Positions 2,540 to 18,261 of a stretch of DNA of 64,000 nt are shown piece after piece (the stretch's first letter is position 1; every line of letters starts with the position of its first letter). Source of the stretch: Bradyrhizobium sp. CCBAU 53421 (GTDB lineage Bacteria > Pseudomonadota > Alphaproteobacteria > Rhizobiales > Xanthobacteraceae); assembly GCF_015291625.1 (NCBI RefSeq), contig NZ_CP030047.1, forward strand, positions 2,542,001 through 2,606,000. Reading direction: 5' to 3'. The translations under genes and the position numbers were made by a program. The notes beneath the pieces are model-generated. The model worked only from the letters and a program-made list of their open reading frames with translations, had not been told where the DNA came from and made no database searches.

Positions 2540-3375
2540 AACCTGTCAATTTCGACTACGCACGACCCGATGCGGTCGACGCGGTGATCCGGCTCATCGC
2601 GGACGACAGCAGAACCGTCAAGATGATGGCCGGGAGCCAGTCGCTCGGGCCGATGTTGAACCTCAGGCTGGTGCAGCCCGATCTGATCGTCGACCTGACC
2701 GGGATCGAAGAGCTGCGCTGTTTCAGCGACGGGGCGGAAGAAATCTCGATCGGGGCTTGCGTCACGCATGCCGATATCGAGGACCTTCGTGTCACCGACG
2801 TCACGCGCGGTGCGCTGCCGACGGTAGCCAGCGGCATCGCATATCGCGCGGTGCGCAATCGCGGCACCATCGGCGGCAGCTTGACGCACGCCGATCCGTC
2901 GGCCGACTGGCACTCGATCCTCGCCGCAGTTGGGGCGAAAGTCGTGCTGCGCGGCCCGGCCGGCGAGCGGACCGTGGCGGTTGAGGACTACATGGTGGGC
3001 GCGCTTGAAGCCGACCTGCGCCCTGGCGAAGTTCTCGTTCGCGTCATGGTGCCGCGATTAAGCAAATCGGCGCGCTGGGGCTACTACAAGAGCTGCCGCA
3101 AGACGGGCGAATTCGCTCACGCGATCGGCGCCTTCATGACCGACCCCGATCGCGGCATCAGCCGTGCGGTCATCGGCGCGACGGAGAGCCGTCCGATCGT
3201 CATCGCCGAGGCAGGCAATGTGATCGGCGATGGCCGAGCTCCGCGTCTGAGCGAGCGTTTCGACGGCGGGGCTGTCGACGAGATTCTGGAGAAGGCAGGG
3301 ATGGTCGATCCCCTGGACAAGCAAACCCATGTCGTCGCGCTGCGCCGCGCGATCGAGCAGGCACGGCCGCAATGA
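2536..3375 (+). CDS. Molybdenum hydroxylase FAD-binding (medium) subunit
   Basis: A 279-residue CoxM/FAD_binding_5-type subunit that accepts electrons from the Fe-S subunit and holds FAD. The FAD-contact motif AGSQSLGPML is near residue 33 and the second glycine-rich stretch NRGTIGGSLTHADP is near residues 111-124, both typical of this family. The start overlaps the large-subunit stop (ATGA-like junction) and the stop overlaps the next start, so the three subunits are translationally coupled. The length is normal for the family. Its paralog is at 35780. Confidence 0.92.
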   Translation: MKPVNFDYARPDAVDAVIRLIADDSRTVKMMAGSQSLGPMLNLRLVQPDLIVDLTGIEELRCFSDGAEEISIGACVTHADIEDLRVTDVTRGALPTVASGIAYRAVRNRGTIGGSLTHADPSADWHSILAAVGAKVVLRGPAGERTVAVEDYMVGALEADLRPGEVLVRVMVPRLSKSARWGYYKSCRKTGEFAHAIGAFMTDPDRGISRAVIGATESRPIVIAEAGNVIGDGRAPRLSERFDGGAVDEILEKAGMVDPLDKQTHVVALRRAIEQARPQ

Positions 3376-4592
3376 GCACCTGTAGCCTCAACGTCAACGG
3401 AAGCGCGGTCAGCGCGGAGATCCAGCCGCGGACTCACCTTGCGGATTTTCTCCGCGAGAAGCTCAATCTGACCGGCACCCATCTGGGCTGCGAGCACGGC
3501 GTCTGCGGCGCGTGCACGCTCCTCGTCGATGGTGTGCCGACGCGCTCCTGCATCACCTTCGCGTTGGCTTGCCAGCAGGCCGACGTCACGACGATCGAAG
3601 GCCTCGACGACGACGAGATCACGCGCGAACTGCGTGCGGCCTTCACGAGGGAGCACGGCCTTCAATGCGGCTATTGCACGCCGGGGATGGTCGTGTCGGC
3701 GCGCGATGTCGTGCTGCGCATGCAGGACCCGAGCGAGCGCGATATCCGCGTGGCCATGAGCGGAAACCTTTGTCGCTGCACCGGCTATGTCGGCATCGTC
3801 CGCGCAATCCAGGGTGTGATCGCAGATCGCAGGGCGCGAGGGATCGCCGCGATTCCAAACGGAAACCGGACGCGTCTTGGACCCTCTGGCTCCGGCAATG
3901 CGACCGCGGTTGCCGCCGTTTCGGCTCGGGCCAAGCCGAGGGCCGCGCCAATTGCGGAGAAGACGGAAGCGCCGGCAGCGGCCGCGGCCTCGCTCCGGGA
4001 TACGAACTGGAAGCCGCAAACGACCTTCACGCAGAGCTTCACCGTCGAACATCCGGTCGATGACGTCTGGAATTTCTTCGCCGACATCGCTGCGGTCGCC
4101 GCCTGCCTGCCTGGCGCATCGCTCGCCGGAGATCCGGTCGACGGTCACGTCGACGGCCAGATCAAGATTAAGGTCGGGCCGATCTCTGCCGAATTTCAAG
4201 GCATCGCCGATGTGACGCGCGACGATGCGACCCGTACCGGCACGATTATCGGCGCAGGCAAGGACAAGCGCAGCAACTCCTCGACCCGCGGCCTGATCGG
4301 CTATGCCGTCAAGCCGGGTGACGCGGAAGACCAAACCAGGGTCGATCTCAGCATCGGCTTCACCTTGACCGGGGCCCTGGCGCAGTTCAGCCGCTCCGGC
4401 CTGATCCAGGATGTGGCCGGACGAATCATTGCCGTTTTTGTCCAGAACCTCGAGACGAGGCTGGCCCATCGATCGGGAGGCGGCGAGGGCGAGCCGGCCA
4501 TGGTCAAGGAATTCGACGCCGGCGCGCTGATGCGATCGATGGCGCTGGACTACATGAAACGAGCGCTTCGATGGCTCTTGCGACGGCCTTAG
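3372..4592 (+). CDS. Fusion of [2Fe-2S] hydroxylase small subunit with a CoxG-type SRPBCC domain
   Basis: Residues 1 to about 155 are a CoxS-type iron-sulfur subunit. A plant-type cluster motif, CEHGVCGAC, lies near residues 40-48, and the second cluster motifs are CGYC and CRCTGY. After an Ala/Pro-rich linker (about 160-215), residues 220-375 form an SRPBCC domain of the CO dehydrogenase subunit G family, opening with FTVEHPVDDVWNFFADI. The C-terminal 30 residues are amphipathic and basic (ALRWLLRRP), which could touch the membrane. Separate CoxS and CoxG proteins are usual, and the same fusion recurs at 36616. A role of the SRPBCC part in handing electrons to quinone is inference. Confidence 0.9.
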   Translation: MSTCSLNVNGSAVSAEIQPRTHLADFLREKLNLTGTHLGCEHGVCGACTLLVDGVPTRSCITFALACQQADVTTIEGLDDDEITRELRAAFTREHGLQCGYCTPGMVVSARDVVLRMQDPSERDIRVAMSGNLCRCTGYVGIVRAIQGVIADRRARGIAAIPNGNRTRLGPSGSGNATAVAAVSARAKPRAAPIAEKTEAPAAAAASLRDTNWKPQTTFTQSFTVEHPVDDVWNFFADIAAVAACLPGASLAGDPVDGHVDGQIKIKVGPISAEFQGIADVTRDDATRTGTIIGAGKDKRSNSSTRGLIGYAVKPGDAEDQTRVDLSIGFTLTGALAQFSRSGLIQDVAGRIIAVFVQNLETRLAHRSGGGEGEPAMVKEFDAGALMRSMALDYMKRALRWLLRRP

Positions 4593-4629
4593 TTGTCCGG
4601 CGATAGAACTCGCCTTTTGCGATGAGATG

Positions 4630-4652
4630 GACTATCTTACTATCATGAATAA
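4630..4652 (+). promoter_or_regulatory. Weak GntR-type site overlapping the gntR start
   Basis: GACTATCTTACTATCATGAA carries two TACTAT-like half sites (ACTATCTT and TTACTATC) next to ATGAA, without the exact seven-base spacing of the other copies. It fits autoregulation of the GntR gene, but the match is partial. Confidence 0.35.
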
Positions 4653-5403
4653 GCTAGTCCCAAATTACGAGCGCAGCCGGGTCCCCCTCTATGTGCAGGT
4701 GGCATCGGTCATGCGTCAGCGGGTCGAGTCCGGGCGATGGCAAGAGGGCGACAAGATCTCGACCATCGAGGAGCTTGAAACCGAATTCGGCGTCGCGCGC
4801 GTTACGATCCGGCAGGCGATCGAGATGTTGCGGAGCGAGGGTCTGCTCGACGCGCAGCAGGGCCGTGGGACGTTCGTGTCCGGACGACCGAAGAATCGTC
4901 ACTGGCTGAACCTGGCCAATGATTTCGAGTCGATGGTCGATTCCGTCAGAAACAACGTCCTCAAGCGCGTCTATGTCGAGGAGAATGCGGAGCTGCCCCG
5001 GCTCGCCGCGCATGAAGGGCGGCCCGCCGCCGGCTACGCATTTCTCAGAAGCGTGCAGTATAACGAGGACGAGCCGTTTTCGGTCGTCAACCTCCATCTG
5101 GCGCGCAACCTCTATCTCAAAGACCGCAAGCGCTTCACCCATACGGCCGCGCTGACCAAGATCATGGAGATGGACGACATCACGCTCGCCCACGCTCATC
5201 AGGTTGTGACGATCGGCGTAGCCGATCCCGAAACGGCCGAACTGCTCAAGATCGGCCTCGGCGAACCAACGGCCGATTGCCGCCTGGTGCTGGTCGACAG
5301 CAACGACATCGCCGTCTATGTCGCCGACATCCATTATCATCGCAGTTGCTTCGCGCTCCGTTCCGATCTTCTCGAAAAATCGAAGAAGCGAACGAAGGCC
5401 TGA
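4645..5403 (+). CDS. GntR-family transcriptional regulator with UTRA ligand domain (HutC subfamily)
   Basis: The N-terminal winged helix-turn-helix (about residues 10-75) contains the family signature EFGVARVTIRQAIEMLRSEGLL followed by the wing QGRGTFV. The remainder is a UTRA-type effector domain as in HutC/FarR. I prefer ATG 4645 to the in-frame ATG 4627 because the latter sits in a probable operator; neither has a clear ribosome binding site. The gene lies between the hydroxylase operon and the convergent diaminopropionate ammonia-lyase. Seven copies of a shared site in this region make it the best candidate for the local regulator. The effector is unknown, presumably the pathway substrate or an intermediate. 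Confidence 0.9.
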   Translation: MNKLVPNYERSRVPLYVQVASVMRQRVESGRWQEGDKISTIEELETEFGVARVTIRQAIEMLRSEGLLDAQQGRGTFVSGRPKNRHWLNLANDFESMVDSVRNNVLKRVYVEENAELPRLAAHEGRPAAGYAFLRSVQYNEDEPFSVVNLHLARNLYLKDRKRFTHTAALTKIMEMDDITLAHAHQVVTIGVADPETAELLKIGLGEPTADCRLVLVDSNDIAVYVADIHYHRSCFALRSDLLEKSKKRTKA

Positions 5404-5439: not shown

Positions 5440-5542
5440 CTAGAGCGTTTTCGAGCGAAGTGGCCACCGGTTCGCGTGAAGAAAACGCGTCAAAACAAGA
5501 ATCTAGAACTTCGGTTCTGATGTAATCAGAACCGAAGCTCTA
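5440..5542. repeat. Bradyrhizobium-type intergenic repeat ending in a 17-bp hairpin
   Basis: The stretch starts CTAGAGCGTTTTCGAGCGAA and ends in a near-perfect stem: AGAACTTCGGTTCTGAT (5505-5521) pairs with ATCAGAACCGAAGCTCT (5525-5541) around GTA. I recognise this as a dispersed intergenic repeat common in Bradyrhizobium-like genomes (recall, not a search). It lies between two convergent genes and its last bases include the stop codon of the ammonia-lyase, so it probably also acts as a terminator. Confidence 0.7.
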
Positions 5543-6727
5543 AGCGAGGATGCTCGCCGGCGAGGCTCCGACGATCTCCGTGTAGCGCTTTTGGTCGGTG
5601 GCACCTTCGGTGTTGATCAGCAGCACGCGCGATGTCTGGTTCAAGCCCAGCGCTTCACGCGCGACACTGCTCTTGGCGGCGCGCCAAAGGCCAGCTAGTC
5701 CAGCAGCGCCGCTTTCGCCGGCCACAATGGCCGGATCGTCGCCTGTCGGGTGTGCGAGCCGGCGCATCGCCACCGCGGCGCCTTCTTCGCCGACCATCAT
5801 GAACGCGTCCGCCTTCCGCGACAGGATGCGCCAGGCAACGAGGGAAGGCTCGTAGCATTCGAGCATCGCCATGATCGTCGGCTCGCCGTGGGCGATCTTG
5901 ATCGGCGCGCCCGCGATGGCGCTCTGATAGAGGCACGCAGCCCGCTCGGGCTCCACGACCACGAAGGTCGGGCGGCTCTTGCCAAAGACAACATCGAAGT
6001 AACCGGCGACTGCCGCTGCGAGGCCGCCGACCCCGGCCTGGACGAATACATGGGTGGGCGCCTCCGGCTGCTGCCGGAGGATCTCGTTCAGCATCGCCGT
6101 ATAGCCCTGCATGACCAGCCCGGGGATGCGCTCATAGCCGGGCCAGGACGTATCCGAGACGACGATCCAATGATTGTCCTGGCAAACCTTGTCGGCAACT
6201 GCGACGGAGTCGTCGTAGGTGCCGGGCACCCGCACGATTTCCGCACCGAAGCGGGCAATTGCCTGCACGCGCTCATCCGTGACTCCGGAATGCACGAAGA
6301 TGACCGCCTTGGCTCCGACCATCTGCGCGCCGGCCGCGACCGATCGTCCGTGATTTCCATCGGTGGCGCAGCCGACCGTCAGGCTGCGCGCGATCTCGCG
6401 TATGGCAGGAGTCTCGATCTCGCTGATATCCACCGCGCGGCCCAGCTTGCTGCTGGCATGCTCCAGCAGTAACCTCAATACGGCGTAGGATCCGCCCAGG
6501 GCCTTGAAGCTGCCAAGGCCGAGCCGATGCGATTCGTCCTTGATATGGATGGACTTCACCTTGAATTCGCGGGCGAGCGCCGGCAGCGATCGCAGCGGCG
6601 TTTCAGCGTGGTTCGGCCGGAAGCTGAGGAAACGCTCGACTTCGTTGGCTTCCTCGCGCGCGAGCGTAGCGGCATCCGCCGGGTCAAGCGGTTGGTCGTG
6701 AGATGAACTTGTATTCGACAGGAACAT
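5540..6727 (-). CDS. dpaL: Diaminopropionate ammonia-lyase
   Basis: A fold-type II PLP enzyme of the YgeX/DpaL family, which converts 2,3-diaminopropionate to pyruvate and two ammonia. The Schiff-base lysine is in GSFKALGGSYA (Lys75 from the chosen start). GCATDGNHGRSVA is the substrate/phosphate loop and QAGVGGLAAAVAG the glycine-rich PLP phosphate-binding loop. The length, 395 residues, is normal. The open frame extends to 6850, but the added residues look non-conserved and would cross the putative operator at 6826, so I start at ATG 6727. Transcribed divergently from the pxpA-F420 operon. Activity on a related beta-substituted amino acid made by this pathway is possible. Confidence 0.88.
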   Translation of the reverse strand: MFLSNTSSSHDQPLDPADAATLAREEANEVERFLSFRPNHAETPLRSLPALAREFKVKSIHIKDESHRLGLGSFKALGGSYAVLRLLLEHASSKLGRAVDISEIETPAIREIARSLTVGCATDGNHGRSVAAGAQMVGAKAVIFVHSGVTDERVQAIARFGAEIVRVPGTYDDSVAVADKVCQDNHWIVVSDTSWPGYERIPGLVMQGYTAMLNEILRQQPEAPTHVFVQAGVGGLAAAVAGYFDVVFGKSRPTFVVVEPERAACLYQSAIAGAPIKIAHGEPTIMAMLECYEPSLVAWRILSRKADAFMMVGEEGAAVAMRRLAHPTGDDPAIVAGESGAAGLAGLWRAAKSSVAREALGLNQTSRVLLINTEGATDQKRYTEIVGASPASILA

Positions 6728-6825
6728 TCGAACCGGCCTTCGCGATGAGTTGTTTGGTGGGAGCAGCTGCCGCTGATCGGACGTGTCGTCGTCGGGCAGC
6801 GCAGCTTGCCAGAGAGTTGAATACA

Positions 6826-6845
6826 TACTATCATTGGGATGATGG
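6826..6845 (+). promoter_or_regulatory. GntR-type operator upstream of diaminopropionate ammonia-lyase
   Basis: TACTAT, seven bases (CATTGGG), ATGATGG. It matches the exact architecture of the copies at 24786 and 24841. It lies about 100 bases upstream of the reverse-strand ammonia-lyase start and inside the divergent promoter region shared with pxpA. Confidence 0.6.
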
Positions 6846-6938
6846 TTCAATACGGTTTCGCGAACCCTTATGCTGTCGTCATCGTCTAAAACCGATCTTC
6901 GGAAAAGCGGGAAAAATTATTCGGTAAAAGGATTGTCT

Positions 6939-6958
6939 TACTAACAATAGAACGTTAT
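6939..6958 (+). promoter_or_regulatory. GntR-type operator upstream of the pxpA-F420 operon
   Basis: TACTAA, seven bases, ACGTTAT. The left half is conserved, the right half is degenerate. It sits 23 bases before the pxpA start, close to where a promoter would lie. Confidence 0.45.
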
Positions 6959-6981: not shown

Positions 6982-7758
6982 ATGACCGTAACGATCAACT
7001 TGAACGCCGACATGGCCGAAGGGTTCGGCGCGTACGACGTCGGTGACGATGCCGGAATCCTGAAGATCATCGGATCCGCCAATATCGCCTGCGGCTTTCA
7101 CGCCGGTGACCCGCGGGTGATGCGCAACGTCGTGCGCGAAGCCAAGCGCCTCGGTGTCACGATCGGTGCTCATCCCGGTTTCAATGATCTCTGGGGCTTC
7201 GGACGCCGCCGCATCGACATGCGCCCCGATGACCTCGAATACATGGTCGCCTATCAGATCGGCGCGCTGCAAGCGATGGCGGCCTACGAAGGCGAGCGGG
7301 TCACCCACCTCAAGCCGCACGGCGCGCTCAACAACATGGCCGCCGAAGACGCCGAATACGCGCTGGCCATCGGCCGCGCCATCAAGGCCGTCGATCCGCG
7401 CATCATCTATGTGGCGCTCGCGGGGTCCGAGATGGAAAAGGCCGGCCGCAAGCTCGGACTTCCCGTCGCGATCGAAGGCTTCTGCGATCGCCAGTACGAC
7501 GACGACGGCAATCTGACGTCGCGCAAGATCGCGGGCTCGGTCATCAAGGACGCTGCGCTCGCGACCCGGCAGGTGCTCGATATGGTGTTGAACAACACCA
7601 TCACCTCCCGCAACGGCAAGAAGATCAAATGCAAGGTCCACTCGCTGTGCGTCCATGGCGACGAGCCAACGGGTGTCGCCACGGCCCGCGCGGTGCGGGA
7701 GGGCCTCGAGAAGGCCGGCGTCAAGCTCGTGCCGCTCACCGAAATGCCCCTCGACTAA
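6982..7758 (+). CDS. pxpA: PxpA/YcsF (LamB family) lactamase-like protein without PxpB/PxpC partners
   Basis: A 258-residue LamB/YcsF protein. It has the family N-terminus NLNADMAEGFG, then NIACGFHAGD, GAHPGFND, HLKPHGALNN, EGFCDRQYDDDGNL and CVHGDEP. In other bacteria PxpA works with PxpB and PxpC as an ATP-dependent 5-oxoprolinase that opens pyroglutamate. No pxpB or pxpC is present anywhere in this window, so a different cyclic amide may be opened, or the partners are elsewhere. It is the first gene of the F420 operon, 21 bases before the F420 reductase. A ribosome binding site (GGTGAAGG) precedes the ATG. Confidence 0.88.
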   Translation: MTVTINLNADMAEGFGAYDVGDDAGILKIIGSANIACGFHAGDPRVMRNVVREAKRLGVTIGAHPGFNDLWGFGRRRIDMRPDDLEYMVAYQIGALQAMAAYEGERVTHLKPHGALNNMAAEDAEYALAIGRAIKAVDPRIIYVALAGSEMEKAGRKLGLPVAIEGFCDRQYDDDGNLTSRKIAGSVIKDAALATRQVLDMVLNNTITSRNGKKIKCKVHSLCVHGDEPTGVATARAVREGLEKAGVKLVPLTEMPLD

Positions 7759-7779
7759 TCCTGGAAAGGCCACCGAGAC

Positions 7780-8439
7780 ATGAACACGAAGCCGACGATT
7801 GCCATCCTTGGAGGAACCGGTGACTTGGGATCCGGCCTCGCGAAATGCTGGCTCGCGGCCGGTTACAAAGTCATTCTCGGTTCACGCTCCGCGGAGAAGG
7901 CCCGGAGCGCGGCGGAGACCATGACCGGCGACGTCGCGGGCGACGACAATGCCGCCGCCGCCCGGGCTGCCGACATCGTGGTCGTTGCCGTGCCGTTCGC
8001 GAGCCATGATGCGACGCTGAACGAAGTCAAGGACGTCGTTCAGGGCAAGATCGTCGTGGATGCCGCGGTCCCGCTGGTGCCGCCGAAAGTGTCCGTGGTC
8101 CAGCTTCCGTCGGCCGGCTCGGCCGCGCAGATCGCGCAGCAACTGCTCGGACTCGGCGTGCGGGTCGTCTCCGCGTTCCACAATGTGGGCGCGACCAAGC
8201 TGCACCAGGGCGGCAAGGCGGATTGCGACGTTCTGGTCTTTGGCGACGACAAGGCGGCGCGCGACATCGTTATCGGTCTTGCGAACGAAGTTGCATCCGC
8301 GGGCATCGACGGCGGCGTGCTGGCAAATTCGGCGGCGGCCGAGGCGCTCACCTCCGTGCTGATCGGGATCAATCGGCGCTACAAGGTGCCCGGCGCCGGC
8401 ATCCGCATCACCGGCCTGTCCGCAAGCCCGGGTGCCTGA
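7780..8439 (+). CDS. npdG: NADPH-dependent F420 reductase
   Basis: A 219-residue dinucleotide-binding protein of the Fno/NpdG family, which exchanges hydride between NADPH and coenzyme F420. The Rossmann motif GGTGDLGSGLA is near residues 10-20, followed by SRSAEKA, which fits recognition of the NADPH phosphate. The F420-side region includes VVSAFHNVGATKL and the C-terminal LIGINRRYKVPGAGIRITG, characteristic of this family. It is the only F420-using enzyme I can identify in the window. The ATG follows GGAAAGGCC; cofE starts 3 bases after its stop. In this context it probably runs in the F420-reducing direction. Confidence 0.9.
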   Translation: MNTKPTIAILGGTGDLGSGLAKCWLAAGYKVILGSRSAEKARSAAETMTGDVAGDDNAAAARAADIVVVAVPFASHDATLNEVKDVVQGKIVVDAAVPLVPPKVSVVQLPSAGSAAQIAQQLLGLGVRVVSAFHNVGATKLHQGGKADCDVLVFGDDKAARDIVIGLANEVASAGIDGGVLANSAAAEALTSVLIGINRRYKVPGAGIRITGLSASPGA

Positions 8440-8442
8440 ACC

Positions 8443-9216
8443 ATGCCTGTGGGGACGCGAGTCGAATACATCGCCCTGCAGGACATTCGGCGCGTCGAGC
8501 CGGGCGAGGATCTTGCCGTGCTGATCAGGCAGAGCCTGGCCGGGATGTCTCTCCAGCTTCAGCGCGGCGACATCCTCGTCATTGCGCAGAAGATCGTCTC
8601 GAAATCGGAAGGGCGTTACGTTCGGTTGAGCGACGTCGAGCCGTCCCCGGAGGCACTCGAACTCGCGGCGGCGGTCGGCAAGGACCCGCGCTTCCTCGAG
8701 GTCGTGCTCCGCGAGTCCGCAGAAGTCGTCAAGACGCGGCCGAATGTCGTCATTGCCGCGCACCGGCTCGGTTTCGTCATGGCCAACGCCGGCATCGATC
8801 AATCGAACATCGAGCACCGTGAAGGCGAAGAGCGCGTCCTGCTGCTGCCCCAGGATCCCGACGGGTCCGCGCAGAGGCTGAAAGTCGCGCTGGATGCAGC
8901 CGGCGACCTCAATCTTGGGATCGTCATCAACGACAGCTTCGGCAGACCCTGGCGCAATGGTGTCGTCGGCGTGGCGATCGGCGCTGCCGGCATTCCCTCG
9001 CTGCTGAGCCAAATCGGCGTCCCCGACATGTTCGGCCGGGCAATGCGCGTCACCGAGATCGCCATCGCCGATGAGATCGCCGGCGCCGCCTCACTGCTGA
9101 TGGGGCAGGCGGGCGAAGGCATGCCGATCATCCTCGTCCGTGGCCTGACGCTTGATGGGCCGGTCTCACCCGCGGCCGCGCTGGCGCGAGCCAAGAGCCA
9201 GGATATGTTCCGATGA
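8443..9216 (+). CDS. cofE: Coenzyme F420-0:L-glutamate ligase
   Basis: CofE/FbiB-N family enzyme, which adds gamma-linked glutamates to F420-0 using GTP. Motifs include the early IVSKSEGRYVRLSDVEPS, the conserved ESAEVVKTRPNVVIA, HRLGFVMANAGIDQSN and INDSFGRPWRNGVVGVAIG. The length of 257 residues matches stand-alone CofE; there is no fused nitroreductase-like domain as in actinobacterial FbiB. It overlaps cofD at ATGA. Confidence 0.93.
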   Translation: MPVGTRVEYIALQDIRRVEPGEDLAVLIRQSLAGMSLQLQRGDILVIAQKIVSKSEGRYVRLSDVEPSPEALELAAAVGKDPRFLEVVLRESAEVVKTRPNVVIAAHRLGFVMANAGIDQSNIEHREGEERVLLLPQDPDGSAQRLKVALDAAGDLNLGIVINDSFGRPWRNGVVGVAIGAAGIPSLLSQIGVPDMFGRAMRVTEIAIADEIAGAASLLMGQAGEGMPIILVRGLTLDGPVSPAAALARAKSQDMFR

Positions 9217-10151
9217 GCGGCGGCGACCGCAATGTTGTTGCGCTTTGTGGCGGGGTCGGCGGCGCCAAGCTCGCCTATGGCCTCAATCGTTTGCTGGGTG
9301 CCAAGCTCGCCATCATCGTCAACACAGGCGACGACTTCGAGCATCTTGGTCTCACGATCTCGCCCGACATCGACACGGTCGTCTATACGCTGGGCGAACT
9401 CGCCGACGAAGAGCGTGGCTGGGGACGAACCGGCGAAAGCTGGAACTTCATGGAGGCGCTCGGCGGCCTCAAGGGCGAGACATGGTTTCGTTTGGGAGAC
9501 CGTGATCTTGCCATGCATGTCTTGCGCTCGCGCGCGCTCGGCGCCGGCGTAACCTTGACCGATTTCACGGGCAGGATTGCATCGCATCTCGGCATTGAGG
9601 CGAGCATCCTGCCAATGACCGACGATCCGTTTGCAACGATCGTCGTGACCGCCGATCAGAAGCTGGCGTTTCAACGCTATTTCGTCGAGCTGCAGGCGCG
9701 GCCAGAGGTCAGGAAGATCGAATTCCAGAGCGCCAGTGGTGGAACGGCGACCAGCGCCGCATTAAGGGCCATCGGCGTAGCCGATGCCATCATTGTCTGT
9801 CCGTCGAACCCGTATCTCAGCATCGATCCGATCCTGGCTGTGCCTGGTATCCGCGCTGCCTTGGATACGACGAGGGCTCCCATCGTTGCCGTCTCGCCGC
9901 TGGTCGGCGGCCGCGCCATCAAGGGGCCGACCGCGAAGATCATGAACGAACTCGGCGTCGCGCCAAGCTGCGCCTCGATCGTCAGGCACTATGGCTTCCT
10001 CGATGGTCTGGTGATGGATCGCGAGGACCAGGCCGATGCCGATGCGGTCGGCATTCCCGTGCATGTGACGAACACGATCATGCGCTCGAAGGATGAGCGT
10101 GTTCAGTTGGCACGCGAATGTCTCCAATTTCTTGGTCGATTGAAGAGCTAA
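9213..10151 (+). CDS. cofD: 2-phospho-L-lactate (or related) transferase, F420-0 synthesis
   Basis: CofD/FbiA family enzyme joining a guanylylated three-carbon phospho-acid to FO. The N-terminal VALCGGVGGAKLAYGL, NTGDDFEHLGL, PDIDTVVYTL, WFRLGDRDLAMHV and ICPSNPYLSIDPI-like (IVCPSNPYLS) motifs are intact. The length, 312 residues, is typical. Whether it takes phosphoenolpyruvate-, phospholactate- or 3-phosphoglycerate-derived donors cannot be read from the sequence alone. Confidence 0.93.
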   Translation: MSGGDRNVVALCGGVGGAKLAYGLNRLLGAKLAIIVNTGDDFEHLGLTISPDIDTVVYTLGELADEERGWGRTGESWNFMEALGGLKGETWFRLGDRDLAMHVLRSRALGAGVTLTDFTGRIASHLGIEASILPMTDDPFATIVVTADQKLAFQRYFVELQARPEVRKIEFQSASGGTATSAALRAIGVADAIIVCPSNPYLSIDPILAVPGIRAALDTTRAPIVAVSPLVGGRAIKGPTAKIMNELGVAPSCASIVRHYGFLDGLVMDREDQADADAVGIPVHVTNTIMRSKDERVQLARECLQFLGRLKS

Positions 10152-10159
10152 GCGAAGCG

Positions 10160-10852
10160 ATGGACGATTTCGAAACCTGGGCGCTGGTGCCGGTCAAGCG
10201 GTTCAGTCAAGCAAAGAGCAGGCTGGGCGATATCCTGGTGGCGACCGAGCGCGCAAAACTCGCGCAAGCCATGCTGTGCGACGTTCTCGGAAACCTCCGG
10301 GATACGCGCTCGCTGGCCGGCATCGCCGTGGTGAGCGCCGATCCGGAAGCGTTTGCGATCGCCAAGCGCTTCGGCGCGGCGATGATCTTTGATGAGGTCG
10401 AGACCGGCGTCAATGCCGCGGTGCAGCGCGGCCTCGACGCATTCCAGCCGTGCGGGCGGCGGGTTCTCGTTGTGCCCGCCGACATTCCGTTTGCCCGTCC
10501 GGAGGACTTCGAACACGTCATCCGGTTGCTGGACCATACGCCGATCGTGCTCGTGCCTGCGCTTTACGACGGTGGGACAAATGCTCTGGCGATGCGCTTG
10601 CCCGACATGTTGGAGCCTCGGTTTGGCGAAGAGAGTTTCCGTGCGCACCGCGACCTGGCGCGGCAGCGGCAACTGAGCTGCAGCGTGTTCAAATCCCATG
10701 GCATCGGCAAGGATATCGACTGCCCAATTGATTTTGGTCCGTATCTGATCTCGTCGCAGAACCTCGGAACGACGGGTTCGCTTCTTGATGAGCTCAAAAT
10801 TGCCGATCGTTTCGGCAGCGACGACCATCCCGTTCCCGTGAGGCTGTTCTGA
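10160..10852 (+). CDS. cofC: 2-phospho-L-lactate (or related) guanylyltransferase
   Basis: CofC/FbiD family GTP-dependent nucleotidyltransferase that activates the three-carbon acid for CofD. The N-terminal WALVPVKRFSQAKSRLGDIL is the characteristic P-loop-like start of the family. VPADIPFARPEDFEHV supplies the metal-binding Asp, and the C-terminal DIDCPIDFG region is also seen. I start at ATG 10160, nine bases after the cofD stop, rather than at an in-frame codon inside cofD. The stop overlaps the cofGH start (TGATG). Confidence 0.9.
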   Translation: MDDFETWALVPVKRFSQAKSRLGDILVATERAKLAQAMLCDVLGNLRDTRSLAGIAVVSADPEAFAIAKRFGAAMIFDEVETGVNAAVQRGLDAFQPCGRRVLVVPADIPFARPEDFEHVIRLLDHTPIVLVPALYDGGTNALAMRLPDMLEPRFGEESFRAHRDLARQRQLSCSVFKSHGIGKDIDCPIDFGPYLISSQNLGTTGSLLDELKIADRFGSDDHPVPVRLF

Positions 10853-13257
10853 TGACGTCCGTCTTGAATCTTCCGTTCGACCGTCGCCTGTCCCGAAGCG
10901 AAGCCTACGAGCTTGTCGATCTTGTGGAGATCGACGAACTCCTGACGGCTGCCGCCAGGCGAAGGGATGCCGCGCACGGCGATGTCATCACCTATTCGCC
11001 CAAGGTATTCATCCCGCTCACCCAGCTTTGCCGCGATGTCTGTCACTATTGCACGTTCGCTCACGCGCCGCGTTCGAACGTCAAGCCGTATCTCTCGGTC
11101 GAGCAAGCGGTCGCGATCGCCAAGGCCGGCAAGGAGGCCGGCTGTCATGAGGCGCTATTTACGCTCGGCGACAAGCCGGAGCTTCGTTACCGCGTCGCGC
11201 GCGAGGAGCTGACAAGGCTCGGCCACGAATCCTCGCTCTCGTATCTAGCCGAAGTCGCAGGGGCGGTGTTCGAGCAGACCGGCCTGCTCCCTCACGTCAA
11301 TCCTGGAATCATGAGCGAGCTCGACCTTGCCATGCTGCGCAAGGTATCGGTCTCGCAGGGCATCATGCTGGAGTCCGCGTCGGACCGGCTTTGCGCGAAG
11401 GGCGGGCCGCATTTCGGATCGCCGGACAAGGTGCCCGCCGTCAGGCTTCAGACAATCAAGACCGCCGGCGAGCAGGCCATACCCTTCACGTCCGGGATCC
11501 TGATCGGCATCGGGGAGACCAGGGCCGAACGGATCGATGCATTGCTCGCGCTGCGCGACCTGAATGATGCGCATGGACATCTGCAGGAGATCATCGTCCA
11601 GAACTTCCGGCCAAAGGTCGGGACGCGCATGGCCAATGCGCCGGCGCCGTCCGTGGACGATCATCTCTGGACCGTCGCTGTCGCCCGCTTGATATTCGAG
11701 CCGGAGATGAACATTCAGGCGCCGCCGAACCTGAGCCCGGCAGCACTGGGGCGCGTCGTCGCGGCAGGAATCAATGATTGGGGCGGCGTGTCGCCTGTCA
11801 CGCCGGACCACGTCAATCCCGAAGCACCATGGCCGCATCTGCGGCTCCTGGAGGCTGCAACGCGGTCAACCGGCAAGCGGCTCGAGAAGCGGTTGCCGAT
11901 CTATCCGAGCTTCGCGCGCTATCCCTCGCGCTGGCTCGACACCAAGCTGCTGAAGTCGGTCCTCGATCGGATCGACGGGGACGGCTTTCCTCGCACCGAC
12001 GACTGGCATCCCGGTCATATCGGCGGACTTCCATCGCGCGAGCTCGGATGGCTGAAATTGCCACCGCGTACGGTGCACCGCAGCGAGGTGACGTCAGTCA
12101 TTGCCAAAGCCCAGCGCGGCGATGAGCTTTCGGAGGGCGAGATCGTCAGGCTGTTCCGCGCTCACGAGACCGACTTCACCAGCATCTGCCGCGCGGCGGA
12201 CGAATTGCGCAGCAGCGTCAACGGCGACGTGGTGTCCTACGTCGTATGCCGCAACATCAACTACACCAACATCTGCTCGTTCAAATGCCAGTTCTGCGCC
12301 TTCTCGAAGGGCAAGATGAGCGAGAATCTGCGTGGCCGGCCCTACGACCTCGAGATGTCCGAAGTCGCGCAGCGGGTCACCGAGGCCTGGGACCGCGGCG
12401 CCTCCGAGGTGTGCATGCAGGGCGGCATCCATCCTTCCTATACCGGGCAGAAGTATCTGGATATCTGTCGGGCCGTGAAGGGTGCCGTCCCTGCGATGCA
12501 TCTCCATGCGTTCTCGCCGCTCGAGATCCATCAAGGGGCGCACACGCTTGGCATTTCCGTCGCCGAGTTCCTGCAGGAGCTGAAAGCGGCAGGCCTCGGC
12601 ACATTGCCGGGAACGGCCGCTGAGATCCTCGACGACGAGGTGCGCGAGACGCTCTGCGCCGACAAGATCAGGACCCAGCAGTGGCTCGACGTCATGCGCA
12701 CGGCGCACTCGATCGGGCTCCGGTCGACGGCCACCATCATGTTCGGCCATATCGAGCGTTACGACCATTGGGCGCGGCATCTGCTCCGGCTGCGGCGCTT
12801 GCAGACGGAGACCGGCGGATTTACCGAGCTCGTACCGTTGCCGTTCGTTCACATGGAAGCGCCGGTCTATCTCAAGGGCCGGGCGCGTCCGGGTCCGACA
12901 TTCCGCGAGGCGGTCTTGATGCATGCGGTGTCGCGTCTCGTCCTCAATCCACACATCACCAATATCCAGGCATCCTGGGTCAAGATGGGACCCGAGGGGC
13001 TGCGGCACTGCCTCTCGGCCGGCGTCAACGACCTCGGCGGCACGCTGATGGATGAGAGCATCTCGCGGTCGGCCGGCGCCTCGCACGGCCAGGAAATGAC
13101 GCCGCAAGAGCTCGAGTCGATCATCATTTCGGCAGGCCGTGTGCCGCGTCAGCGCACGACGACGTATGGCGTCGCGGACGGGGTTCGGAGGCAGCGCTCA
13201 TTTGACGCGGTCCGCGAGCGGCAGACCGGTACGGGGATGCGATCCGCGGGGTGCTAA
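10852..13257 (+). CDS. cofGH: FO synthase, fused CofG-CofH
   Basis: Dual radical SAM enzyme making the deazaflavin FO from tyrosine and 5-amino-6-ribitylamino-uracil. The N-terminal CofG half carries the cluster motif CRDVCHYC near residues 60-67. The C-terminal CofH half carries CSFKCQFC near residues 474-481. The 801 residues match actinobacterial FbiC-type fusions; archaea use two separate proteins. With cofC, cofD and cofE this completes the known F420 pathway in one operon. The last 40 residues (after ISAGRVPRQR) are rich in Arg/Gly. Confidence 0.94.
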   Translation: MTSVLNLPFDRRLSRSEAYELVDLVEIDELLTAAARRRDAAHGDVITYSPKVFIPLTQLCRDVCHYCTFAHAPRSNVKPYLSVEQAVAIAKAGKEAGCHEALFTLGDKPELRYRVAREELTRLGHESSLSYLAEVAGAVFEQTGLLPHVNPGIMSELDLAMLRKVSVSQGIMLESASDRLCAKGGPHFGSPDKVPAVRLQTIKTAGEQAIPFTSGILIGIGETRAERIDALLALRDLNDAHGHLQEIIVQNFRPKVGTRMANAPAPSVDDHLWTVAVARLIFEPEMNIQAPPNLSPAALGRVVAAGINDWGGVSPVTPDHVNPEAPWPHLRLLEAATRSTGKRLEKRLPIYPSFARYPSRWLDTKLLKSVLDRIDGDGFPRTDDWHPGHIGGLPSRELGWLKLPPRTVHRSEVTSVIAKAQRGDELSEGEIVRLFRAHETDFTSICRAADELRSSVNGDVVSYVVCRNINYTNICSFKCQFCAFSKGKMSENLRGRPYDLEMSEVAQRVTEAWDRGASEVCMQGGIHPSYTGQKYLDICRAVKGAVPAMHLHAFSPLEIHQGAHTLGISVAEFLQELKAAGLGTLPGTAAEILDDEVRETLCADKIRTQQWLDVMRTAHSIGLRSTATIMFGHIERYDHWARHLLRLRRLQTETGGFTELVPLPFVHMEAPVYLKGRARPGPTFREAVLMHAVSRLVLNPHITNIQASWVKMGPEGLRHCLSAGVNDLGGTLMDESISRSAGASHGQEMTPQELESIIISAGRVPRQRTTTYGVADGVRRQRSFDAVRERQTGTGMRSAGC

Positions 13258-13310
13258 AGGACCGGAGCGAGGCCGAGAGAGCAGAGAACTCTCCAACAGG
13301 GATGTTTGAA

Positions 13311-14801
<1,491 letters not shown>

Positions 14802-14959
14802 TCGGCTCGCGCGGCATCGTGTCCGTCGAAGGAGTTTCGAAACTGGTCTAGGCGAAAGCAATCGCGCAAATGATGAGCGGCTGCGTCAATTGAGGGCACT
14901 GCGAAAACAAAAATAGAGCAGGGCGCCTGCTTGACGACGGATTAGAAGTGTCTTTAAGA

Positions 14960-14979
14960 TACTAAGAATAGGATGATAG
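14960..14979 (+). promoter_or_regulatory. GntR-type operator upstream of the branched-chain-type ABC operon
   Basis: TACTAA, seven bases (GAATAGG), ATGATAG. It keeps the seven-base spacer. It lies in the 280-base gap before the binding-protein gene at 15082, which otherwise holds nothing I can identify. Confidence 0.55.
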
Positions 14980-15081
14980 GATCATCATCCCAGCGGTGAC
15001 GAATGGCCGGCATCCATAAGCTGGCGCGCTGCACTGGTGTTTCGTTCCCTAGGCATGGCTCTTGCGAGCACAGGAGGAAAG

Positions 15082-16245
15082 ATGAAGCGAGCACACGGAT
15101 TGATTACGGGCGCGGCCCTCGCCGCGGCAATGTCGACCGCACTGGCGACGGGCGCAGCGGCGCAGACCATCAAGATCGGTGTCAATGAGCCGCTCACCGG
15201 TCCGTTCGCCGCTTCCGGTACTTATGTCGTGAACGGCGCAAAGATTGCCGCCGACGAAATCAACGCCAAGGGCGGCTTGCTCGGTCGCAAGATCGAGCTC
15301 GTCATCGAAGACAACAAGAGTAATCCGACCGAAGCCGCCGCCGTCGCCGAGAAGCTGATCACCGGTGACAAGGTGCCCGTGATCATGGGTGCCTGGGGCT
15401 CGAGCCTGACGCTCGCCGTGATGCCGAAGCTGATGGAATACAAGGTCCCGATGGTGGTGGAAACCTCGTCCTCCAGCAAGATCACGACATCGGGCAATTC
15501 CTACATCTTCCGCATCTCGCCGCCGTCCTCGGTCGAGGCGACCGAGTTCAAGTCCATCATGCCGTCACTCGGCATCAAGAAGGCCGACTTCCTCGTCATC
15601 AACAATGACTGGGGCCGCGGATCGGCCGAGGACTTCGGCAAGATCATGAAGGCGCAGAACATCCAGGTCGGCCTCGTGGAAATCATGGACCAGGCCGCCC
15701 AGGACATGAGCGCCCAGCTTGCCAAGATCAAGGCGACCGACTCGGACACGATCATGGTCACGACCGCGGTCGAGCAGCTCACCCTGGTGTTGAAGCAGGC
15801 CGCTGCGCTCGGCATCACCAAGCGCATCGTCACCACCGGCGGTTCGCAGAACCCGGATCAGCTGATCGAGCAGGCTGGCGCCGCAGCGAACGGCTCGATG
15901 CATTTGACGACCTTCGCACCCTGGTATCCGGACAAGACCCCGGACCCGGCAGCAACGAAGTACTTCCTTGGCGAGTGGAAGAAGCGTGGCTATGCGATCG
16001 CCGGCGCGACCGAGAGCTTTCGCGGCTACGACGGTATCCGCACGATCGCCAATGCGATTCAGCGGGCCGGCAAGGCAGAGCCCGCGGCGATCACCGACGC
16101 GCTTTGGACGACCGACTTTCCCGGCCTGAACGGCCAGATCAAGTTTCAGAAGCAGGGGCCGACCGGCAAGGAAAGCGGCCAGAGCATGCCCAACCTCTAT
16201 CTGATCAAAATCGAGAACGAGAAGATCGTCCTGTCGGGCTCCTGA
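15082..16245 (+). CDS. ABC transporter periplasmic substrate-binding protein, branched-chain amino acid type
   Basis: A Leu/Ile/Val-binding-protein-like receptor (Peripla_BP_6). A Sec signal peptide of about 26 residues ends at GAAAQ before TIKIGVNEPLTGPFAASG. The protein contains the type I binding-protein repeats AAAVAEKLIT and VVETSSSSKIT. The ATG follows GGAGGAAAG. It heads a five-gene importer (binding protein, two permeases, two ATPases). The ligand is unknown; such receptors often take aromatic acids or amides rather than amino acids. It is preceded by a putative GntR site. Confidence 0.92.
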   Translation: MKRAHGLITGAALAAAMSTALATGAAAQTIKIGVNEPLTGPFAASGTYVVNGAKIAADEINAKGGLLGRKIELVIEDNKSNPTEAAAVAEKLITGDKVPVIMGAWGSSLTLAVMPKLMEYKVPMVVETSSSSKITTSGNSYIFRISPPSSVEATEFKSIMPSLGIKKADFLVINNDWGRGSAEDFGKIMKAQNIQVGLVEIMDQAAQDMSAQLAKIKATDSDTIMVTTAVEQLTLVLKQAAALGITKRIVTTGGSQNPDQLIEQAGAAANGSMHLTTFAPWYPDKTPDPAATKYFLGEWKKRGYAIAGATESFRGYDGIRTIANAIQRAGKAEPAAITDALWTTDFPGLNGQIKFQKQGPTGKESGQSMPNLYLIKIENEKIVLSGS

Positions 16246-16262: not shown

Positions 16263-16289
16263 AGGCGCCACCATAACGGGTGGCGCCTT
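16263..16289 (+). terminator. Intercistronic hairpin after the binding-protein gene
   Basis: AAGGCGCCACC pairs perfectly with GGTGGCGCCTT across a six-base loop. It lies between the binding protein and the first permease. Such hairpins commonly stabilise or partially terminate the message so that binding protein exceeds permease. Confidence 0.65.
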
Positions 16290-16357
16290 GGCATTGCCTC
16301 GCCCATAGAACATGCTCTGAAGAGAGGATCAGCGGTCTTTCGGCCGAAAAAATCAGC

Positions 16358-17230
16358 ATGACCGAGCTTCTGCAACACATCGTCAACACGCTCATTCTGG
16401 GCAGCACCTACGCGCTGCTGGGTATTGGGCTCACGCTCATCTTTGGCATCATGCGTGTCGTCAATTTCGCGCACGGTGAGCTGTACTCCTTCGGCGCCTA
16501 TGCGCTGTACTTCGTCGGCGTGATGCTCGGCCTGAACTTCTTCCTTGCACTGATCGTGGCGGTCGTGCTGGGCTGCTTTGCCGGTGCGCTGATCGAGGTC
16601 GTCTTGTTGCGTCCGATGCGTGGTGCCGACATCGATACGACCATGCTGGTCATGATCGGCGCCATGATTGTGATGCAGAATGGTGAGCAGTTCGTCTGGG
16701 GTGGCGTCGCGAAGTCGGTCTCGACACCGTTCCCGGAGCTTCCGCTCGTGATCGGTTCGATTTCGGTGTCCTGGTTGCGCCTGTTCGTCTTCTGCGCGGC
16801 CCTTGCCCTGATCGGCGTGTCCTATCTCCTGATCAACCGCACAAAGCTCGGAAAGGCGATGCGCGCGACCTTCCAGGATCGTGACGCTGCTTCGCTCATG
16901 GGCGTCAACATCCAGTTCATCTACATGGCGACGTTCGCGATCGGCTCGAGCCTCGCGGCGGCGGCGGGTGCCTTGCTCGGACCGGTCTACGTCATCTCCC
17001 CGCAAATGGGCAACCTCGCATCGCTGAAGGCTTTCGCCATCGTCATCCTGGGCGGTCTCGGCAGCATTGGCGGGGCCACCATCGGCGGCTTCCTGCTGGC
17101 GCTGGCCGAGGAGCTTGGTGCCGGATACGTTTCGTCGGGCTACCGCGATGCCATGGGCTTCCTGATCATCATCGCCGTTCTTCTCTTCAAGCCGACCGGC
17201 CTGTTTGCGCGCGCGGAGCGGATCGGATGA
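16358..17230 (+). CDS. Branched-chain-type ABC transporter permease (LivH-like)
   Basis: An inner-membrane permease of about 290 residues with eight or so hydrophobic segments. It starts MTELLQHIVNTLILGSTYALL, which is typical of LivH proteins, and has the family stretch GLTLIFGIMRVVNFAHGE. The C-terminal cytoplasmic loop with AFAIVILGGLGSIGGA contacts the ATPase. ATG 16358 is chosen because upstream residues in the open frame are hydrophilic and run through the intercistronic hairpin. It overlaps the next permease by 4 bases. Confidence 0.92.
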   Translation: MTELLQHIVNTLILGSTYALLGIGLTLIFGIMRVVNFAHGELYSFGAYALYFVGVMLGLNFFLALIVAVVLGCFAGALIEVVLLRPMRGADIDTTMLVMIGAMIVMQNGEQFVWGGVAKSVSTPFPELPLVIGSISVSWLRLFVFCAALALIGVSYLLINRTKLGKAMRATFQDRDAASLMGVNIQFIYMATFAIGSSLAAAAGALLGPVYVISPQMGNLASLKAFAIVILGGLGSIGGATIGGFLLALAEELGAGYVSSGYRDAMGFLIIIAVLLFKPTGLFARAERIG

Positions 17231-18261
17231 ATCGCTTGATCCCCTATATTGCGCTCGCAGCGTTCGCATCAGTCCCGCTCTGGCTGCACGATCCGTATCT
17301 GCTGAATGCCTTCATCACGACGGGTATCCTCATTATCGCGGCGATGAGCCTCAATCTCCTGCTCGGGTACACGGGGCAGCTGAGTCTGGGTCACGTCGCC
17401 TTCTTTGGAATCGGAGCCTACACCAGCGCGCTGGTGTCGCTCGGATTCGATGTCGAGTTGATCGGCGGTATCCGCGTGGTTCACGAACCCTGGCCGGTCT
17501 GGACCGGGTTCGTGATCGGCACCCTCGTTGCCGCGCTCTGCGGCTATGCCGTCGGGAAGCTGTCCTTCAAGGTGCGAGGTGCCTACTTCGTCATCGTGAC
17601 CATCAGCTTTGCGGAAGTGGTCCGGCTGATCGCGCTGAACTGGGTCGAGTTAACCCAGGGGCCGTTGGCCTTGACTTCGATCCCGCCGATGACGCTGGGG
17701 CTGCCCGGGGTCGGCTATCTCGACTTCTACAGCAAGCAATCCAACTACTACCTCGTGCTTGCCGTCCTTGTGGTGTCCTACATCGTCATCCGGCGTCTGG
17801 TTTACTCCCGCGTCGGGCGGGCCATGATCGCGCTCAAGGAGAACGAGTCGCTTGCGGTCTCGGTCGGGATCGACGTGACCCGCTATTTGGTGCTGGCCGC
17901 GGTCTTTTCGGCCGGCATTGCCGGGGCCGCCGGCAGCCTCTACGCCCATTACCTCAAGATCATCGACCCCGACGTGTTCGCGTTCCTCTACACGGTCACG
18001 ATGGTGATCATGGTGATCTCGGGTGGCAAGGGCACCCTTGCGGGCCCCATCGTTGGCGGCCTCATCTTCGGATTCATTCCGGTCGCGGCCCGTTCTTTCG
18101 CCACCCCCGAGATACAGTGGATACTCTATGGCTTGCTGATGATCATCATCGTCTTCGTGTTGCCGAAGGGGATTGTCCCCGCCGTTGAGAAGTGGTTCGC
18201 GGCGCCCAGCACCCGCGTAGATCCGGAGCCTCTCCAAGCCAAGATGCACGACACGCCATGA
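17227..18261 (+). CDS. Branched-chain-type ABC transporter permease (LivM-like)
   Basis: A 344-residue membrane protein with the LivM signatures SLNLLLGYTGQLSLGHVAFFGIGAY and YVRGAYF-like KVRGAYFVIVTISFAEV. The EAA-type coupling loop reads MVIMVISGGKGTLAGPIVGG. Its start overlaps the LivH-like gene and its stop overlaps the ATPase gene start. The C-terminal 30 residues after VPAVEKWF are hydrophilic. Confidence 0.92.
   Translation: MNRLIPYIALAAFASVPLWLHDPYLLNAFITTGILIIAAMSLNLLLGYTGQLSLGHVAFFGIGAYTSALVSLGFDVELIGGIRVVHEPWPVWTGFVIGTLVAALCGYAVGKLSFKVRGAYFVIVTISFAEVVRLIALNWVELTQGPLALTSIPPMTLGLPGVGYLDFYSKQSNYYLVLAVLVVSYIVIRRLVYSRVGRAMIALKENESLAVSVGIDVTRYLVLAAVFSAGIAGAAGSLYAHYLKIIDPDVFAFLYTVTMVIMVISGGKGTLAGPIVGGLIFGFIPVAARSFATPEIQWILYGLLMIIIVFVLPKGIVPAVEKWFAAPSTRVDPEPLQAKMHDTP

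Follow-up and report, generated by a model that had tools for sequence, protein, structure and literature searches.

The 64,000-bp stretch of DNA analysed here (the window) comprises positions 2,542,001 to 2,606,000 of the single 9.26-Mb contig of Bradyrhizobium sp. CCBAU 53421, and contains an operon for synthesis of cofactor F420 on its forward strand. The operon extends from 6982, the start of ycsF, to the stop codon of cofGH at 13257 in the order ycsF-npdG-cofE-cofD-cofC-cofGH, and neighbouring genes either overlap or are separated by short gaps; as given by the starts of the open reading frames (ORFs), the overlaps are 4 bp for CofE/CofD, 34 bp for CofD/CofC and 1 bp for CofC/CofGH. The F420 genes were assigned to families by NCBIfam scores relative to curated cut-offs, all of which are passed (Table 1). 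A first-pass annotation of the sequence had proposed a tightly packed F420 operon here, and both the operon and its packing are borne out. Its gene set is also right, but it placed the NADPH:F420 reductase last, whereas npdG precedes cofE, and the leading gene that it called lactamase-like encodes a LamB/YcsF protein of the 5-oxoprolinase subunit PxpA family according to Pfam and NCBIfam. Around the operon are genes for a molybdenum (Mo) hydroxylase, a GntR regulator, a 2,3-diaminopropionate ammonia-lyase (DAL), a PALP-family enzyme, an ABC transporter and a transhydrogenase, and we refer to these genes, together with those just upstream of the window described below, as the island.

CofC, CofD, CofE and CofGH, the set by which a bacterial F420 pathway is recognized, all score above their cut-offs and NpdG accompanies them, but the earlier description of the pathway as complete needs qualifying. 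If phosphoenolpyruvate is the precursor, a dehydro-F420-0 (DF420-0) reductase is expected, and a genome-wide comparison with the model for the FbiB C-terminal type of this enzyme yields nothing above the cut-off. The top match scores 58.2 bits against 249.55 and is 27% identical to a Neopusillimonas nitroreductase. Stand-alone FbiB-C-like nitroreductases are encoded in five other clusters of this type (L007, L008, L037, L021 and L159; none matched in the other cluster loci examined) and are candidate DF420-0 reductases; for the two that were scanned the DF420-0 reductase model is the best or near-best match, with sub-cut-off scores of 132 and 147 bits. As to the form of the cofactor, a Ser or Thr at the CofC position of Mycetohabitans S162 marks enzymes of the 3-phosphoglycerate (3PG) type in the available text of the study concerned (PMC8764529). 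The Bradyrhizobium CofC has a Gly aligned with this position, which rules out a 3PG-F420 producer and argues for a CofC of the phosphoenolpyruvate/2-phospholactate type.

The genome encodes luciferase-like monooxygenase (LLM) family proteins (PF00296) at 29 places and PNPOx-type proteins (PF01243) at seven, and none of these lies inside the window, in agreement with the earlier observation that no F420H2-dependent oxidoreductase of a known family is visible there. Of the two explanations then offered, a new acceptor enzyme or a gene outside the window, the second holds: an LLM gene at 2539687-2540640 ends 1.36 kb upstream of the window's edge, in a row of genes for CoA-transferase subunits A and B (CoaTA, CoaTB), the LLM and an M20 deacylase that leads directly to the first Mo-hydroxylase gene in the window. 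With this enzyme so close, a new acceptor is not needed and was discarded. The LLM scores 192.6 against a cut-off of 166.9 for TIGR03619, a family named as F420-dependent, and models of flavin mononucleotide (FMN)-dependent families score lower. Among the 28 LLMs scanned in this genome it alone matches an F420 family at E≤1e-50, the other 27 matching FMN-dependent or other monooxygenase families or nothing; the 29th (922477-923226), of which only 173 aa fell in the stretch taken, is outside this comparison. The predicted structure of the Nitratireductor ortholog (pLDDT 91) has both FMN and F420 enzymes among its top matches with tied Z scores, and thus does not settle the cofactor. Further F420 users may be present among the seven PNPOx_N proteins outside the window, and PF04075, which covers Ddn-type F420 enzymes, has no matches here, although it had none in the control genomes either.

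Expectation maximization applied to upstream regions recovered a palindrome, CTATCAT-N4-ATGATAG, that can alternatively be read as overlapping repeats, TCATnCTA-N4-TAGnATGA. It was evaluated in regions of about 130 to 320 bases around chosen gene starts from eight genomes in seven species groups (without the cof and LLM operons of cluster G198), leaving out one group at a time and setting the threshold at the 99th percentile of dinucleotide shuffles. In this held-out test 38 of 57 upstream regions pass, where about 0.6 are expected, including those of the cof operon (7/7), the first gene of the LLM operon, either PALP or CoaTA (7/7), the Mo-hydroxylase (8/8) and the solute-binding protein (8/8), with fewer for pnt (4/5) and gntR (3/8) and the single region tested for a thiamine pyrophosphate (TPP) enzyme. 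None passes among the separately tested DAL (0/5) and LivH (0/5) regions, nor among an internal CoaTA, a dihydroorotase and the G198 YcsF (0/3 together). The full motif model, for which this genome's own upstream regions were part of the training set, was also run over 82 kb of the Bradyrhizobium genome, made up of the window and 18 kb upstream of it; each of the ten highest-scoring 18-base sites precedes an island operon or the pair of TPP and ABC operons.

The first-pass annotation had suggested the related sequence TACTAT-N7-ATGATAA as a site by which F420 enzymes elsewhere in the genome could be found. Its only exact occurrences in the window, at 24786 and 24841, are not upstream of cof, and with one mismatch it has one additional place in the genome, at 6.59 Mb; at up to three mismatches there are 11 matches in the window where 1.47 are expected, and it therefore reflects a real repeated site. 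As a genome-wide marker of F420 enzymes we rejected it, since none of its three places at up to one mismatch is at an LLM gene, though the broader palindrome does precede the LLM operon. The TPP enzyme genes and the divergent ABC operon (23583-28765) flank both exact sites, so that the regulon of this genome may reach past the conserved island. With a shared operator, the genes for F420 synthesis and for the presumed F420 user seem to form part of one regulon, and the GntR protein encoded in the island presumably controls the island operons through the common palindrome.

Table 1. Features of the window (coordinates within the window; scores are given against model cut-offs; PWM, position weight matrix; PLP, pyridoxal phosphate).
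Feature	Coordinates	Strand	Basis or remark
Operator-like palindrome before Mo-hydroxylase operon	85..102		PWM scan; passes leave-one-group-out test
Mo-hydroxylase large subunit	104..2539	+	Pfam; no AYRCSFR motif
Mo-hydroxylase FAD subunit	2536..3375	+	Pfam
Mo-hydroxylase 2Fe-2S subunit fused to CoxG domain	3372..4592	+	Pfam
GntR-UTRA protein (HutC/PhnF-like), presumed island regulator	4627..5403	+	Pfam, NCBIfam
Operator-like palindrome at gntR start	4640..4657		PWM scan
2,3-diaminopropionate ammonia-lyase family (DAL, YgeX-like)	5540..6850	-	NF006058 520.5 vs 276
Operator-like palindrome, DAL side of DAL/ycsF intergenic region	6828..6845		Best-scoring site of that region
Operator-like palindromes nearer ycsF-npdG-cof	6933..6958		W18 at 6933 and 6941; W20 at 6936
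LamB/YcsF (PxpA family), candidate ring-opening hydrolase	6982..7758	+	Pfam, NCBIfam
NpdG, NADPH:F420 oxidoreductase	7780..8439	+	TIGR01915 183 vs 149.8
CofE, F420-0:glutamate ligase, without FbiB C-terminal domain	8443..9216	+	TIGR01916 258 vs 180.65
CofD	9213..10151	+	TIGR01819 291 vs 257.45; sole PF01933 match genome-wide
CofC, Gly at 3PG-diagnostic position	10118..10852	+	TIGR03552 151 vs 105
CofGH (FbiC), FO synthase	10852..13257	+	NF006687 1140 vs 1018
PALP, PLP fold-type II, distant to cysteine synthase, candidate C-N lyase	13251..14801	+	Start uncertain
Operator-like palindromes before transporter operon	14954..14979		PWM scan
Branched-chain-type ABC solute-binding protein	15037..16245	+	Start near 15085 likely
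LivH, LivM, LivG, LivF (ABC permeases and ATPases)	16280..19755	+	
PntAA-PntAB-PntB proton-translocating transhydrogenase	20053..23009	+	No operator passed in this genome
Two-subunit TPP enzyme, sulfopyruvate decarboxylase-like	23583..24781	-	Below cut-offs; behind two operator-like sites
Two exact TACTAT-N7-ATGATAA sites	24786..24860		Between TPP genes and divergent ABC operon

The LLM is also associated with F420 synthesis in other genomes. In a sample of 397 from the order, LLM orthologs are found in 15 and CofGH in 45 (E≤1e-100, weaker relatives being uncounted), and all 15 LLM-containing genomes have CofGH at a distance of 1.1 to 14.0 kb (Fisher P = 6e-16, not corrected for phylogeny). 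Similarly, 12 plasmid records, all from Sinorhizobium, encode an LLM more than 77% identical to ours, and the same 12 encode a CofGH at 71-74%. The LLM could instead be an FMN-dependent monooxygenase that opens a ring as RutA does, with the F420 serving some other enzyme of the genome. We consider this improbable given the invariable presence of cofGH, the shared operator, the TIGR03619 score relative to those of the FMN families and the lack of a comparable F420-family match among the remaining LLMs scanned; use of F420H2 by the island LLM is the reading that these sequence comparisons favour.

Homologues of the whole island were sought through CofGH, taking the best 80 of 583 confirmed places and six of 74 plasmid records to give 86 loci. 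An LLM is matched in 41 of these, at no more than 37% identity to ours in 33 and at 71-86% in eight, and it is in these eight that the whole island recurs; added stretches of sequence extend the range of LLM identity down to 58%. In total 25 clusters were assembled, including the one described here, from Alpha- and Betaproteobacteria (two records, G321 and G398, represent one place on a Kaistia granuli contig and are counted once). Their hosts include K. granuli, Nitratireductor pacificus, two Cupriavidus species and Neopusillimonas maritima, as well as plasmids of Sinorhizobium meliloti and S. fredii, and many island-bearing Proteobacteria are aerobes. Several stretches end within the island, and absences there are not proof of loss. 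CofGH and CofD are present in all 25 clusters, CofC and NpdG in 24 and CofE in 23; in cluster G233 neither CofC nor CofE was matched in the stretch covered, and a second CofGH is encoded elsewhere in that genome. CoaTA is found in 24 clusters and CoaTB and the LLM in 23 each, the gaps corresponding to two contigs shorter than 9 kb, followed by GntR in 22, PALP and at least one Mo-hydroxylase subunit in 20 each and PntAA in 11, and every cluster has one or other of two kinds of PLP enzyme, PALP or DAL. Conservation to this extent makes a dedicated degradative role likely. The earlier proposal that F420 is made here for one degradative route is thus strengthened by the shared operator and the 25-cluster conservation, while its further element, induction by the substrate, is what we infer from the operator.

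In a tree of 97 CofGH sequences the Bradyrhizobium protein groups with other island sequences in a clade of 11 tips (support 0.997), but the 24 island sequences as a whole do not stand apart, being placed together with 11 others in a group of 35 tips; the island sequence left out (G108), which is split by a stop, was below the length limit. Within the genus, 15 members of which were sampled including this one, the LLM is found here only and CofGH here and in one other, which suggests that the island is patchy and was probably acquired. The transhydrogenase genes (pnt, 20100-23018) are matched by two further copies in the genome, one at about 8.2 Mb (99.55% identity over 2905 bp) and one at about 1.72 Mb (95.9% over 2916 bp), which suggests that a duplicate of the genome's own pnt was recruited here. 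The pnt of other clusters is more distant, and in four of those tested it has an operator.

The Mo-hydroxylase large subunit is closest among solved sequences to quinoline 2-oxidoreductase (450.6 bits), followed by CoxL (432.2), and it scores far below the cut-offs of the NCBIfam carbon monoxide dehydrogenase models (519.8 against 950 and 458.4 against 991). It lacks AYRCSFR, which we take to be the active-site loop of form I carbon monoxide dehydrogenase, and that identity was ruled out. CoaTA is closest to chain A of 1poi, and CoaTB has a Glu aligned with the Glu of chain B that is presumably the catalytic residue of glutaconate CoA-transferase; in AibB (5n02, 5n01) the aligned residue is not Glu. 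YcsF passes two PxpA subfamily models (NF003814, 347.8 against 226; NF003816, 239.7 against 213) without reaching the three PxpA equivalog models. PxpB and PxpC are absent beside it, and the CT_C_D domain occurs in this genome only at 5.07 Mb and at 1.37 Mb, the latter within a frame of 1181 aa. DAL passes TIGR01747 (323.1 against 274) as well as the model in Table 1, though not TIGR03528 (350.2 against 532.25), and retains a Lys and two Asp that align with what we take to be the PLP-binding Lys and the two catalytic Asp of the E. coli enzyme 4d9g.

Two kinds of hydrolase alternate among the clusters. M20 is present in 14 and YcsF in ten, with PxpB and PxpC accompanying YcsF in six; for the 23 clusters that remain when the two contigs under 9 kb (L011 and L021) are set aside, M20 alone is found in 12, YcsF alone in eight, both in two and neither in one (P = 7e-4, ignoring relatedness), and the YcsF match of G198, at 55%, is maybe a paralog. 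This distribution suggests one amide-hydrolysis step served by two alternative enzymes. Dihydroorotase was considered as a general ring opener and rejected, being matched among the 25 only in the two Sinorhizobium clusters and in Cupriavidus numazuensis. Less frequent companions are a protein of the Lrp/AsnC family in six clusters, beside DAL in four (two scanned by Pfam, the others found by similarity), DUF1989-related proteins next to PALP in three (two scanned by Pfam), carbonic anhydrase in two Cupriavidus clusters, and a pair of acyl-CoA carboxylase genes after the LLM in three betaproteobacterial clusters (one pair scanned).

We consider it reasonably probable that this is an acquired, co-regulated island that supplies F420 on demand for the reductive breakdown of an N-heterocyclic acid. 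Its gene content, family memberships, conservation, linkage and shared operator are read from the sequences; the order of steps, the intermediates and the substrate given here are those that would fit them. The branched-chain-type ABC transporter would import the acid, and the CoA-transferase, which is of the GctAB type, probably forms its CoA thioester. The three-subunit Mo-hydroxylase would then place an oxo group beside a ring nitrogen to give a cyclic amide or cyclic urea, and the LLM, encoded with the CoA-transferase, would transfer hydride from F420H2 to saturate the ring and abolish its aromaticity. The F420 would be made as needed by CofC, CofD, CofE and CofGH and reduced by NpdG with NADPH, which the adjacent transhydrogenase may replenish. 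A single amide hydrolase, either M20 or PxpA/PxpABC, would open the ring, and a PLP lyase (PALP or DAL) would release ammonia and a C3 acid. The residues that DAL shares with 4d9g and the Lrp/AsnC protein found beside DAL in four clusters make 2,3-diaminopropionate a plausible intermediate, and the substrates that would fit best are those whose reduced and opened ring has amino groups on adjacent carbons beside a carboxylate, with imidazole- and pyrazine-carboxylates and purines as candidates.

A specific form of this scheme, with an imidazole- or pyrazine-type carboxylate as the substrate, is in itself unlikely. Ring reduction would yield a cyclic urea or lactam, for example 2-oxoimidazolidine-4-carboxylate, an aza-analogue of 5-oxoproline, the compound handled by the PxpA family; a single hydrolysis would convert the reduced ring to 2,3-diaminopropionate or an N-carboxymethyl derivative of it, from which DAL or PALP would produce pyruvate. 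The number of steps fits one hydrolase, PxpC belongs to a urea-amidolyase-related family, and the DUF1989 relatives, the carbonic anhydrase and the Lrp/AsnC proteins are in keeping with it; against it, no direct evidence points to these compounds, and the CoA-transferase and the betaproteobacterial acyl-CoA carboxylase pair are left unexplained, as is PALP in the general scheme. The objection that two hydrolyses would be required for a cyclic urea was not upheld, since the carbamate produced by hydrolysis loses CO2 by itself. 2-Imidazolidone-4-carboxylate inhibits 5-oxoprolinase, and nothing on the two together was among the open-access PubMed Central matches listed.

A pyridine carboxylate such as nicotinate could also be the substrate, by way of 6-hydroxylation, reduction by F420H2 to a tetrahydro-oxo acid, lactam opening, and activation of a C5 dicarboxylate by the GctAB-like transferase. 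The affinity of the CoA-transferase to glutaconate CoA-transferase and of the Mo enzyme to an N-heterocycle hydroxylase accords with such a route, for which a single amide hydrolase would be enough, and Azorhizobium has a reductive nicotinate route. This reading offers no role for a PLP C-N lyase, however, and yet PALP or DAL is universal among the clusters; we give it only a small probability.

Among described pathways the reductive uric acid route comes nearest; in E. coli and Clostridioides difficile it comprises XdhD-YgfK-SsnA-HyuA-YgeW-YgeY-YgeX, and the available text mentions a variant with F420 and an LLM in Chloroflexota (PMC12507026). As far as that text goes, the two have in common the Mo-hydroxylase family, a reductive dearomatization, an M20 hydrolase and diaminopropionate ammonia-lyase, whereas the island has no SsnA or YgeY at cut-off and adds its own F420 synthesis, a CoA-transferase and PxpA or PALP. 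The island could accordingly be an F420-dependent version of purine breakdown, in which a purine is the substrate of the Mo enzyme, the LLM stands in for YgfK, and M20 and DAL act as YgeY and YgeX, but this seems very unlikely. SsnA is below its cut-off throughout the genome (best 120.2 against 455.5 bits), the M20 protein scores 134 against a cut-off of 321 for YgeY (NF009555), and the purine route uses four hydrolases or ureido-cleaving enzymes (SsnA, HyuA, YgeW or UacY, and YgeY) where most clusters show one or two among the genes sought; YgfK/UacX, HyuA and YgeW/UacY were not seen among the island genes scanned, with no genome-wide search made for them. The island may thus resemble the uric acid route without being a member of it.

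Three other systems share parts of the proposed scheme. In actinobacterial catabolism of picrate and 2,4-dinitrophenol, an NpdG-type F420 reductase and an F420H2 enzyme add hydride to an electron-poor ring; that cluster is not known to have a dedicated cof operon, whereas the island regulon includes F420 synthesis and has a Mo-hydroxylase and an amide hydrolase beside it. The 2-furoyl-CoA pathway (HmfABCDE) likewise combines the CoA thioester of a heteroaryl carboxylate with a Mo-hydroxylase, but acts on an oxygen ring with a CoA synthetase and without F420, in place of the CoA-transferase and F420 of the island. An Agrobacterium rubi plasmid (NZ_CP049208, locus L086, 12289-25095) carries PxpABC-like genes, an LLM and cofD-cofC-cofGH-cofE-npdG together as ours does, but its YcsF is 41% identical, it has aminotransferases, among them a GABA aminotransferase, and biotin carboxylase, and no Mo-hydroxylase or DAL was matched; it is a second instance of the theme of F420 with lactam opening. 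F420-linked reductive catabolism of rings is known as such, and what the island would add to it is a dedicated supply of F420, apparently under the same control; no description of the island as one pathway was among the open-access PubMed Central matches listed.

A 26-kb region of pSymA, found among the strains of one study only in S. meliloti GR4, KH35c and KH46, has been associated with nodule competitiveness, with k-mer hits in genes for CofD, FbiC, LivF, PyrC, an ArgE-like protein, DAL, PntA/B, Mo-hydroxylase, GctA/B, an LLM and GntR (PMC8407117). In the available text the authors discuss the fbi operon and call its role deserving of attention, and the region is given as a set of separate functions rather than one pathway (PMC8407117). 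The island of GR4 spans 26,436 bp, its genes are 43-87% identical to ours (78% for the LLM and 87% for CoaTB), and it matches the published region by gene list and length. It differs in having a dihydroorotase, of which our island shows none, whereas PALP, YcsF and another copy of the transhydrogenase are present in ours. The association with competitiveness rests on few strains and could be explained by shared ancestry. In another strain, S. meliloti R28 (L083), cofE is split over two frames (17525-18296) and DAL into two ORFs of the same frame (35971-37164), reflecting either decay or sequencing error; cofE of GR4 is a single match.

Put at its fullest, the proposal is that a horizontally spread proteobacterial island makes F420 only when needed and so powers one ring-reduction step of an undescribed reductive N-heterocycle pathway ending in amino acids of the 2,3-diaminopropionate type, and that in Sinorhizobium it contributes to nodule competitiveness, perhaps through a plant or rhizosphere compound. 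We offer this version tentatively, as it is more doubtful than not. If true, F420 would for the first time have an assigned physiological role in Proteobacteria, the published nodule-competitiveness region would gain a mechanistic reading, and the notion that N-heterocycles are broken down by F420-linked reduction, already put forward for Chloroflexota, would be extended. In its available text, a 2021 review states that experimental work on F420H2-dependent reductases in bacteria had not gone beyond the Actinobacteria and treats the reason why Proteobacteria make F420 as an open question (PMC8498797); in another study three Rhizobiales genomes were found to have the F420 pathway, the role of which was untested there (PMC5794936). 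By pointing to a single enzyme and regulon and to a group of partner enzymes, the island reduces the question to a few direct tests in culturable strains, among which S. meliloti GR4 and K. granuli carry it.

Several observations lie outside this island type. Two loci, in a Bradyrhizobiaceae metagenome-assembled genome (MAG; L006) and in Bradyrhizobium jicamae (L012), have a Mo-hydroxylase and a distant LLM (25-27% identical) beside cof genes, showing that the association of these three recurs elsewhere. A record labelled as a Klebsiella pneumoniae MAG (L025) carries CofGH, cof genes and an LLM, which suggests that it is mislabelled or misbinned. Further along the window, an unusual ORF of 964 aa (29897-32791) fuses Rieske domains, a pyridine-nucleotide-disulphide reductase and the alpha domain of a ring-hydroxylating oxygenase. 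A second set of Mo-hydroxylase genes with a CoxG fusion, followed by a branched-chain-type solute-binding protein, occupies 33405-39770, and the eleventh-best site of the 82-kb operator scan, a weak one at 38524, lies within this region.

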